In this document: piece after piece, positions 1 through 28,167 of the stretch
Position numbering within the stretch: position 1 is the first letter of the stretch
Layout: every line of letters begins with the position of its first letter
Source of the DNA: Halothiobacillaceae bacterium
GTDB taxonomy: Bacteria; Pseudomonadota; Gammaproteobacteria; Halothiobacillales; Halothiobacillaceae
Assembly: GCA_016938615.1 (NCBI GenBank)
Contig: JAFGUH010000109.1
Span: 1-37,342 of the forward strand
Length of the DNA stretch: 37,342 bases
Reading direction: 5' to 3'
The notes under the pieces: model-generated
What the model was told of the DNA's origin: nothing
The model's input: the letters and a program-made list of their open reading frames with translations, nothing else
Databases searched by the model: none
Program-made: the position numbers and the translations under genes

Positions 1-209
1 CGACGTAAGGCGGCCCGAAGGGCGGGGTTCACGGACGAACCCCGCGACGCCGCAGGTGGGCGCCTGGCGGCCCGCCCTGCGGGGCTTACCGGCTTGTCCG
101 TCATCGGTGTTCCCGAACCTCGCCGGGCAATGAGCCCGCCTTCGGATCGGCGCCTTGATGACGAACAAGCCGGTAAGCCAGAGGCATTGGATATTCGTGC
201 AGAGGTTCC
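1..209 (-). mobile_element. Palindromic intergenic element, copy A (5' side cut by window start)
   Basis: Non-coding palindromic element related to the complete copy at 27839-28106, in the opposite orientation. It holds a 23-bp stem (83-105 with 157-179, 22 of 23 matched), a second hairpin with a perfect 9-bp tip (22-30 with 37-45), and one outer arm at 183-209 that reads GGAACCTCTGCACGAAT on the minus strand. The 4 bases after the arm are TTAA (210-213). The matching outer arm should lie just left of the window. I infer a non-autonomous mobile element; no transposase is present. Confidence 0.65.
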
Positions 210-213
210 TTAA

Positions 214-330
214 CGAACCTGCCCTGGGTCGGACCACGGAGGCCCGGTCCACCTGGATGCCCGGCGCCGGGGTTTTCGATGAGCCGAACCCGGGCCGGCG
301 GTGTTGGATATTCGCGCAGAGGTTCCATAG
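214..330. repeat. Second outer-arm copy in the pepA leader
   Basis: A second copy of the outer arm lies at 304-326 in the same orientation as the arm at 183-209 (TTGGATATTCG[C/T]GCAGAGGTTCC). The DNA between contains short GC-rich inverted repeats. This may be a fragment of another element or a tandem remnant. It sits about 85 bp upstream of pepA, so any pepA promoter must lie in or near it. No convincing promoter was identified. Confidence 0.4.
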
Positions 331-16417: not shown

Positions 16418-16635
16418 GAACACGTCTCCCTGTGTTGTGTTGATCACGCCGGCCTCCATGGCCGGCAACCGACTCGACTCGTGGGCCGAAGGCGCCCGAC
16501 AGTCTTGCCGAAGACAGGCCGGTTGTCCACTCCCTGGATTGACGGTTCGTCCGGCAAGCCGGCGAACGTCGGCTGTCGCCCCGCGCAACGCGAGCGTCGA
16601 TCGATCGGCATTCAGACGGGGGCGGGCAAGCCTAG
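16418..16635. other. Spacer between lpxC and the response regulator
   Basis: The 16418-16728 spacer is partly filled by repeat copy B. The remaining 218 bp hold the presumed promoter and leader of the response regulator. I see no clear promoter boxes, no hairpin of note and no coding evidence in it. Confidence 0.3.
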
Positions 16636-16728
16636 AGAACCTCAGCACGAATGCCAAGCCGCTGGAGCGCGCCTTGATCACGAACGACTCGCTCAGCCCG
16701 AGTGGCAAGGCATTCGTGCTGAGGCTAC
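16636..16728 (-). mobile_element. Palindromic intergenic element, short copy B
   Basis: A 93-bp element. Its ends contain a perfect 16-bp inverted repeat CCTCAGCACGAATGCC / GGCATTCGTGCTGAGG (16640-16655 with 16709-16724). It is flanked on both sides by CTAG (16632-16635 and 16729-16732), consistent with a 4-bp target duplication. Inside it carries GCGAGTCGTTCGTGATCAAG (minus strand), identical to part of copy C. The body matches copy C with its middle missing. The right CTAG contains the TAG stop of lpxC, so the insertion left the protein intact. Confidence 0.7.
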
Positions 16729-17646
16729 CTAGTCGGCGATCTGAGCCGCCGGTCGGGAAAACGACACGGGCGGCGGTTCCTCGTTTTCGAAGGTCACGGT
16801 TTCGTAGGCCGTTTCCTGCGCGAGGAGCGTCCGCAGCAACTGGTTGTTCAGCGCATGACCCGACTTGTGGCCGGTAAAGCTGCCGATCACGCTGCAGCCG
16901 AGCAGGTAAAGGTCGCCGATGGCATCGAGGATCTTGTGCTTGACGAACTCGTCGCCATAGCGCAGCCCGTCCTCGTTGAGGATGTGCTCCTCGCCCACCA
17001 CGATCGCGTTGTCGACCGAGCCGCCCAGCGCCAGGTTACGCGAGCGCATCATCTCCAGATCGCTCATGAAGCCGAAGGTGCGCGCCCGGGCGACTTCCTT
17101 GACGAAGGAGGTCGAGGAGAAGTCGATCTCGGCGAGCCGGGCGGACTTGTCGAGGACGGGATGATTGAAGTCGATCGACATGGCGACGCGGAAGCCCTCG
17201 TGCGGGTCGAAGCGCACCCAGCGGTCACCGTCGACCACCTCGACCGGCTCAAGGATGCGGATGAAGCGCTTGTGAGCGTCCTGTTCCTCGATACCCGCCG
17301 ACTGGATCAGGAAGACGAACGGACTCGCACTTCCGTCCATGATTGGCATTTCCGGGCCGTCGATCTCGACCACGCAGTTGTCGATCCCCAGACCGGCCAG
17401 CGCCGACATCAGGTGTTCGACGGTACTGATCTTGACCCCGTCCTTGACGAGCGTGGTGGACAGCTGGGTCTCCCCCACGTTGAAGGCATGCCCCGGGATG
17501 CTGGCGTCGTTGCCGAGGTCGACGCGGTTGAAGACGATGCCGCTGTCCACGGCAGCCGGTCGCAACGTCAGTCGGACCTGCTCGCCCGTGTGCAGGCCGA
17601 TCCCCGTAGCGCGGATGGTGTTTCGGAGTGTGCGTTGCTGAACCAA
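16729..17646 (-). CDS. lpxC: UDP-3-O-acyl-N-acetylglucosamine deacetylase
   Basis: About 305 residues. Zinc deacetylase of the committed step of lipid A synthesis. The metal and active-site segments are present: [27 protein letters not shown] (zinc His and Asp) and [13 protein letters not shown] (catalytic His). No ATG or GTG start is in frame near the expected N-terminus. TTG at 17646 gives [11 protein letters not shown], which aligns with the family start; TTG at 17659-17661 is the alternative. Neither has a strong ribosome binding site, which suggests weak translation. The stop codon lies in the duplicated target of repeat copy B. Confidence 0.93.
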
Positions 17647-17677
17647 GATCGAAGAACCCAAGCCGGTGAATCTGGGG

Positions 17678-27745: not shown

Positions 27746-27838
27746 GGGCATCTCCAGTGATGACCGCCGGGGAGCCCGACGGAGATGGGTATTCGATTTC
27801 GAATGGCGCCGGCCGCGTCGAGCGGGCGGACGCGCAAG

Positions 27839-28106
27839 GGAAACTCTGCACGAATGCCATGCCACTGAAGGCTTGGCGAGTCGTTCGTGATCAAGGCGCG
27901 TCGTCGCCGGCGTGCCGGTGCCCACGTCAAGACGACGCAACGCGGAGCACGGACGACTCGCCAGGCCCCGCAGGGCGCGCCTTGAGCCGGGCACCTGCCG
28001 CGTTGTCGTCCTTGGAAAGAGAATAACTCTTCCGCGGCGGACGAGCGCCTTGCATCTGCCCGGCTCAAGACGCGCTTCAGCGGTATGGCATTCATGCAGA
28101 GTTTCC
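27839..28106 (+). mobile_element. Palindromic intergenic element, complete copy C
   Basis: A 268-bp non-coding element whose 32-bp ends are inverted repeats (27839-27870 with 28075-28106, 29 of 32 matched). Inside are two long hairpins: 27870-27892 with 27945-27967 (20 of 23) and 27975-27993 with 28057-28075 (18 of 19). The fold is thus a closing helix bearing two arms. CAAG directly flanks both ends (27835-27838 and 28107-28110), consistent with a 4-bp target duplication. It carries no open frame of note. It splits hflX from hflK, which are usually adjacent. Confidence 0.75.
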
Positions 28107-28167
28107 CAAGGCAGCGCCAGAGTGTAGTGCCCGGCGCCCGACGAGGCAACCGCACGGTCGCGGCGAG

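Follow-up and report, generated by a model that had tools for sequence, protein, structure and literature searches.

MITEs, small transposons that lack a transposase of their own, are usually regarded as decayed transposons, inside which nothing is selected. A second group of small, intergenic, mobile repeats, the Correia repeat enclosed elements of Neisseria, has inverted ends that fold, and is accompanied by a duplication of TA. Correia elements are described, in the part of PMC2649163 that was available, as able to act on neighbouring genes. MITEs that fold are also on record, as seen in the accessible portions of a review (PMC10969869) and of the papers on Thiomargarita (PMC4853749) and on MITEAba12 (PMC6382973), none of the elements in those portions being the one described below.

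Here we describe an element found in the window (i.e., the whole analysed stretch of 37,342 nucleotides), which is contig C245 of a genome (G000) of 2.4 Mb in 267 contigs, the host genus most likely being Guyparkeria. In this case the interior of a MITE is conserved in shape, and it is common to elements with different ends. The starting point was a hairpin noticed in two copies of a repeat, and what was seen there proved to be one small part of an extensive family of MITEs with twin hairpins.

The Element and Its Copies in the Window

The features of the three copies, A, B and C, are collected in Table 1. The fold plan of copy C comprises an end stem, hairpin 1 (class X) and hairpin 2 (class Y), with X and Y each of about 100 nt and inverted relative to each other; compared with shuffled sequences, the fold has z values of -13.1 and -14.1 on the two strands. 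Other subfamilies in the same genome have the same fold plan, with stem letters that are largely different.

The flanks of copy B are CTAG at 16632-16635 and at 16729-16732. This copy directly abuts the end of lpxC, and its right CTAG target repeat contains the stop codon of that predicted gene (16729-17661, - strand). Upstream of pepA (1-330), two elements or their remnants are neighbours: copy A, and an end repeat that is probably from another, broken copy.

Table 1. Features of the element copies in the window
Feature	Positions	Strand	Basis
Copy A, diverged family member, truncated by the contig end at 1	1..209	-	end motif match at 193
Copy A end repeat	193-209	-	end motif match
Copy A hairpin (class X), arms	83..105 and 157..179	-	inverted repeat, 96% complementary
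TTAA adjoining copy A end, candidate 4-bp target duplication, other side off the contig	210..213	.	sequence; 4-bp duplications of other copies
Second end-repeat-like sequence adjoining copy A	310..326	-	end motif search
Copy B, 93-bp internally deleted form (ends and part of one hairpin arm)	16636..16728	.	repeat and end-motif searches
Copy C, complete 268-bp element	27839..28106	+	end motifs; empty site in two genus-mates
Copy C left target duplication CAAG	27835..27838	.	empty-site comparison, end motifs
Copy C right target duplication CAAG	28107..28110	.	empty-site comparison, end motifs
Copy C left end repeat (GGAAACTCTGCACGAATGCC...), one end-stem arm	27839..27869	+	repeat search
Copy C right end repeat, other end-stem arm	28076..28106	-	repeat search
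Copy C hairpin X, own strand +	27868..27969	+	R1 E 8.7e-10
Copy C hairpin Y, own strand -	27974..28076	-	R1 E 3.3e-24; same place recovered in class and phylum searches

The preliminary description had compared the hairpin arms of copy A with those of copy C (27870-27892 and 27945-27967). When A is read on the - strand and C on the + strand, the arms indeed align without gaps over 23 positions; the stems differ at positions 6, 7, 10, 11, 13 and 20, where both arms have altered and Watson-Crick pairing is kept at each, and position 16 is T.G in both copies, all as had been reported. The stem of copy C also contains two features absent from that account, a T.G pair at position 4 and a true A.G mismatch at position 21. 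The hairpin thus compared is one half of an inverted hairpin pair inside an IS5-type MITE.

Mobility and Kinship with IS5

With its IS5-type ends, its length of 268 bp and a YWAR-like target duplication of 4 bp, the element is a MITE; it is short and, from the list of open reading frames, non-coding, and its ends are common to an autonomous IS5 element. The empty site of copy C, with a single CAAG, survives in two genus-mates (G006 and G005), which marks copy C as a recent insertion; the flanks also lie close together without the element in five further genomes (G003, G010, G001, G007 and G002). End motifs with at most one mismatch occur 146 times (72 + 74) in the genome of the window, compared with 0 for the reversed control. 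Nine of ten genus-mates contain the element, the genome without it being 64% complete. Identical 4-bp flanks were found for 23 of the 99 copies that have both flanks; in 1000 shuffles the expectation was 4.9 and the highest value 12. Of the 23, 19 are YWAR, three are TTAT and one is CTGG. At one locus in the same genome (L016, contig C174), two full-length copies lie head to tail and share the TTAT between them.

A search of a named genome collection with the end pattern gave 65 stretches, mainly from Guyparkeria, MAGs named Halothiobacillus, and Comamonadaceae. At two Acidovorax loci (L139 and L161), such ends lie 1.19 kb apart with an IS5-family transposase between them (PF01609 and PF05598; matches to NF033581 at 1e-97 for L139 and 1.4e-95 for L161). 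Acidovorax MAG_42 has a further partial IS5 element of this kind (L189) together with several MITE copies. The PF01609 search of 11 genus genomes was positive in one (G002), for an unrelated copy without these ends, and found nothing in the genome of the window; a matching mobilising transposase was thus found in none of the 11, and a resident transposase was rejected as the mobiliser on these grounds.

Two copies in a genome of another family (L205 and L238 in G170, family f147) are Guyparkeria-like with nearly identical ends, which suggests horizontal transfer. The plasmid search with copy C gave no match, and that with L252 gave one 57-base match, in Azotobacter chroococcum.

Covariation within Full-Length Copies

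For the analysis of covariation, 102 unique copies aligned over 225 bases or more were taken from the genome of the window and from G001, G002, G003 and G005-G010; shorter matches, two duplicates, and alignment columns filled in fewer than half of the rows were left out. An R-scape-like test was written for this analysis: a G-test with APC, in which substitutions are redistributed along the tree, with 40 null sets. At E 0.05, this tree-aware test found six significant column pairs among 34,980, all of them stem pairs (18-275, 19-274, 31-262, 33-260, 55-130 and 194-202); the covariation implied by the two copies of the preliminary description was therefore borne out with more copies. By Fitch reconstruction, 173 changes of both arms fall on a single branch of the tree (60 internal, 113 terminal), compared with 35-43 when the partner column was slid by 1-3. 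The conclusion that the fold has been conserved beyond chance and beyond relatedness is supported, the function of the fold being a separate matter.

Changes of one arm only, starting from Watson-Crick pairs and taken together for every stem in the 102 copies, gave 202 G.U, 179 A.C and 193 other mismatches. The share of the other (non-wobble) mismatches is alike on internal (41/119) and terminal (152/455) branches, i.e., they have not been purged.

Insertions shared by two species show what happens to copies that have settled. Such copies decay mostly by one-arm changes: in 11 shared-insertion contrasts there are 89 one-arm and 13 both-arm changes, eight of the latter being from Watson-Crick to Watson-Crick; 3.7 would be expected if the arms were independent. 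The 11 contrasts were treated as independent, and one old pair (L049/L121) supplies eight of the 13 both-arm changes. Of the one-arm changes, 25 of 89 are between Watson-Crick and plain mismatch. Summed over contrasts, differences occur at 37 of 502 loop sites and 115 of 2390 stem sites.

The Wider Hairpin Family

The exact pattern of hairpin Y, GATGCAAGGCG N25-55 CAACGCMGCAGATG, was found in 8 of 369 genomes of the class (4 of 271 genera), and the reversed pattern in none. In three genomes (G108, G231 and G375) the pattern lies within elements that are built alike (an end stem, then a hairpin, a CCCGCAGGG-like linker and a second hairpin in inverted orientation), and the end sequences of these elements differ from those of the Guyparkeria element. 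A covariance model, R1, was built from 24 such hairpins (alignment A2, with 88.2% of cells paired vs 74.3% when shuffled and 37-45% when slid). With the best 10 candidates per genome scored, so that copy numbers are lower bounds, R1 matches at E up to 1e-4 were found in 94 of 369 class genomes (75 of 271 genera). In a sample of the phylum, scored in the same way, 50 of 398 genomes (34 of 213 genera) have matches; 27 of the 50 are from the same class, including the genome of the window. Beyond the class, the matches cluster in a single family (f207), the genome sizes being 1.2-3.1 Mb. A decoy model was made by reversing 20 of the 24 sequences behind R1, with the pairing and the per-position information matched to those of R1; this decoy, which has no positive control, had no match in the 369 class genomes nor in 29 loci.

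Within the window, R1 matches both hairpins of copy C (Table 1) and also the hairpin of copy A (91-171, - strand, E 2.9e-4), which supports the relatedness of X and Y. Outside Guyparkeria, 38 foreign loci were available (29 + 9, from two locus sets). In 25 of the 38, a match on the + strand is followed by one on the - strand after a gap of 4-8 nt (17 of the 25 at 5 nt), and the reverse order, - then +, was found in none of the 38. The remaining 13 have a single R1 match, and several of these fold with a second hairpin. The inverted hairpin pair recurs inside ends of different sequence. At two loci (L239 and L247) the second hairpin is either extended or of a different design, as though another sequence had inserted into it.

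In a structure-fitted alignment of the wider set, 92.7% of cells are paired, compared with 62.2% when shuffled and 36-41% when slid; this figure includes ten antisense matches of 61, which were excluded from the counts for the remaining 51 hairpins. In their own orientation, the outer stems of these 51 foreign hairpins are on average 43% identical and yet 97% paired. The unpaired motifs CAAGGCG and CAAC and a spacing of 62-65 nt have been conserved while the stems turn over.

There are 23 loci outside Guyparkeria, nearly all in Comamonadaceae, that have the ends of the Guyparkeria element; 11 of these match R1 at E <1e-5, mostly as one hairpin in a MITE of ~165 bp, with L134 also twin. A script found a 4-bp duplication with an end repeat at 18 of the 23, which was not counted as evidence because some registers are likely wrong (GTAC, GATC, GGCC). 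Six loci of Acidovorax (L131, L137, L142, L163, L182 and L193) are ~165-bp MITEs with the same IS5-type ends and one family hairpin, not two. R1 had no match at E <1e-5 in the IS5-bearing loci L139, L146, L161 and L189.

Strand Preference and Gene Context

The wobbles were sorted by hairpin and by the strand on which each hairpin is read. In the 51 foreign hairpins in their own orientation there are 133 G.U and 48 A.C wobbles. Because a model that accepts G.U may select hairpins rich in G.U, 20 partner hairpins, found by their position beside a match, were counted separately; their outer stems have 35 G.U, 9 A.C and 2 others (p=1e-4). In Guyparkeria, the G.U:A.C events in own orientation are 84:42 for hairpin X (p 2e-4), 90:79 for hairpin Y (hp2; not significant) and 39:47 for the end stem. 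These p values are guides only, because alignment cells and events are not independent. The own strand also folds better, in 45 of 51 foreign hairpins with RNA parameters and in 46 of 51 with DNA parameters, and in 92 (X) and 85 (Y) of 102 Guyparkeria copies. The pooled ratio of 202:179 had suggested that there is no strand preference; after sorting by own strand, this was revised for X and the foreign set, and is unchanged for Y. The G.U bias on the own strand, which holds for the foreign set and for X, would point to selection on a single-stranded fold, which could be either RNA or ssDNA. The inverted arrangement of X and Y makes the strand favoured by one the opposite of that favoured by the other. 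No single transcript explains both hairpins, but a unit that is recognised single-stranded and occurs once per strand could do so.

Copies sit between genes, with a median gap of about 60 according to a simple gene finder based on codon usage. Counting one copy per shared site (89 of 102), host transcription at tandem-gene sites runs along the - strand in 35 and along the + strand in 17 (p=0.018); the remaining contexts are divergent in 23, convergent in 8 and undecided in 6. The direction of the host genes was considered as a determinant of wobble type and had no effect (G.U:A.C 19:21 for ++ and 42:32 for --).

Explanations for the Retained Fold

As the shape has been retained despite changed letters, something seems to depend on the folded, single-stranded form. 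The explanation that we favour, and hold to be moderately probable, is a MITE with IS5-type ends and a twin-hairpin core, the folded hairpin of which is used single-stranded, with selection being helped by template switching. Copies A, B and C belong to a MITE with ends of the IS5 type and a YWAR-like target duplication of 4 bp; the conserved core within its ends consists of two ~100-nt hairpins, which lie on opposite strands in a head-to-head arrangement with 4-8 nt between them. The folded hairpin may be recognised or used as a single strand, i.e., as RNA read through the element or as ssDNA during replication or transposition, and through its inversion the pair would ensure that one correctly oriented hairpin is present on whichever strand is exposed. 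Selection would act mainly on lineages that keep moving, and copies that have settled would be left to deteriorate through changes in a single arm. Template switching probably produces some of the double changes in a single step, and selection would then sieve them. Less probable is that the two inverted ~100-nt hairpins, with their conserved A-rich internal loops, are an ancient, undescribed module that is present in proteobacterial elements with differing ends and is recognised as a folded single strand.

Mutation alone might also keep the arms paired, if a polymerase switches template within the palindrome and copies one arm to the other without any selection. The mix of transitions and transversions is similar in rare double types (34:29) and rare single types (124:129), and both-arm transversions in the end stem are as common as transitions (35:35), both of which are expected if one mutation is copied across the arms; the persistence of non-wobble mismatches fits as well, and the mechanism has been described for RNA hairpins in the available part of PMC8794818. 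Such copying predicts, however, that G.U equals A.C and that other mismatches are many, which is not the composition of the 20 partner hairpins, and it leaves unexplained why unpaired motifs and spacing should be conserved amid the turnover of the stems. As an explanation without selection it is unlikely. The preliminary description had suggested selection on the fold, with gene conversion between arms as the caveat. The suggestion has gained from the wider family, in which outer stems remain paired at low identity and wobbles lean to G.U on the own strand; the caveat still stands, in view of the end-stem transversions, the similar mix in double and single changes, and the excess of one-arm over both-arm changes in shared insertions.

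Two further explanations place the cause elsewhere. If the fold were a structured RNA in host transcripts (e.g. protecting or processing read-through mRNA), selected for the benefit of the host at each site, the position of copies between genes and the excess of tandem sites along the - strand would be accounted for. Settled copies nevertheless decay by one-arm changes, including those between Watson-Crick and plain mismatch, wobble type is independent of host direction, and the two hairpins favour opposite strands; all of these make a host-transcript RNA distinctly improbable. Still harder to credit is an ordinary MITE, in which the ends match for the transposase, the inner hairpins are passengers, and the paired differences mark subfamilies spread by transposition. 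Its IS5-type ends, 4-bp duplication, many subfamilies and end stem without strand bias are those of the element here, but an inner core that recurs in many families with other end sequences and the same pair geometry is unlike a passenger.

Use of the fold as a single strand is the best reading of the sequences, and template switching probably assists. Should the fold be in use, many proteobacterial repeats have a common structural core that is unnamed as far as we have searched; if the reading as a single-strand module is true, this would be a novel type of signal, independent of orientation, within non-autonomous transposons. The family also lends itself naturally to testing the long-standing question of whether stem arms change together via two selected steps or via one copying event.

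Comparison with Known Systems

Rfam 15 gave no match in the window (gathering threshold) nor in seven foreign loci (E up to 0.1), and a known RNA family was ruled out on this basis. No description of the twin-hairpin core was found in a literature search whose scope was set outside subscription papers, ISfinder and Dfam. In the searched text of two Guyparkeria genome papers (PMC9032823 and PMC6504805), the terms 'transpos', 'insertion sequence' and 'MITE' are absent.

The element shares with REP/REPIN sequences that it is a dispersed intergenic palindrome. In the available part of PMC3733652, REP/REPIN units are 20-40 bp and fall into GTAG- and CGTC-tagged families, whereas the unit here is 268 bp with IS5-type ends, and REP/REPIN was rejected on the criterion of unit size. 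Coxiella QMITE1 and QMITE2 are, like the element here, strongly folding gammaproteobacterial MITEs; compared by their description in the accessible portion of PMC5896051, they differ in having duplications of 2-4 bp (WW, SS or GAAG) and of 7-9 bp. Hairpins kept by template switching during DNA replication show changes of both arms in one step, as some of those here probably do, but the part of PMC8794818 consulted describes them for RNA genes and not for mobile twin hairpins.

The element here has a 4-bp duplication rather than TA, and for this reason was not classed as a Correia element. The end sequence of Correia elements differs as well, and we know of no twin-hairpin core in them. A close likeness is to the IS5-group MITEs: the ends held in common with the 1.19-kb IS5 elements of Acidovorax, the type of target duplication, the lack of an open reading frame and the high copy number are all those of that group. 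It differs from them in that the genus yielded no matching transposase in the PF01609 search, and in that, inside its ends, it has a conserved inverted pair of ~100-nt hairpins.
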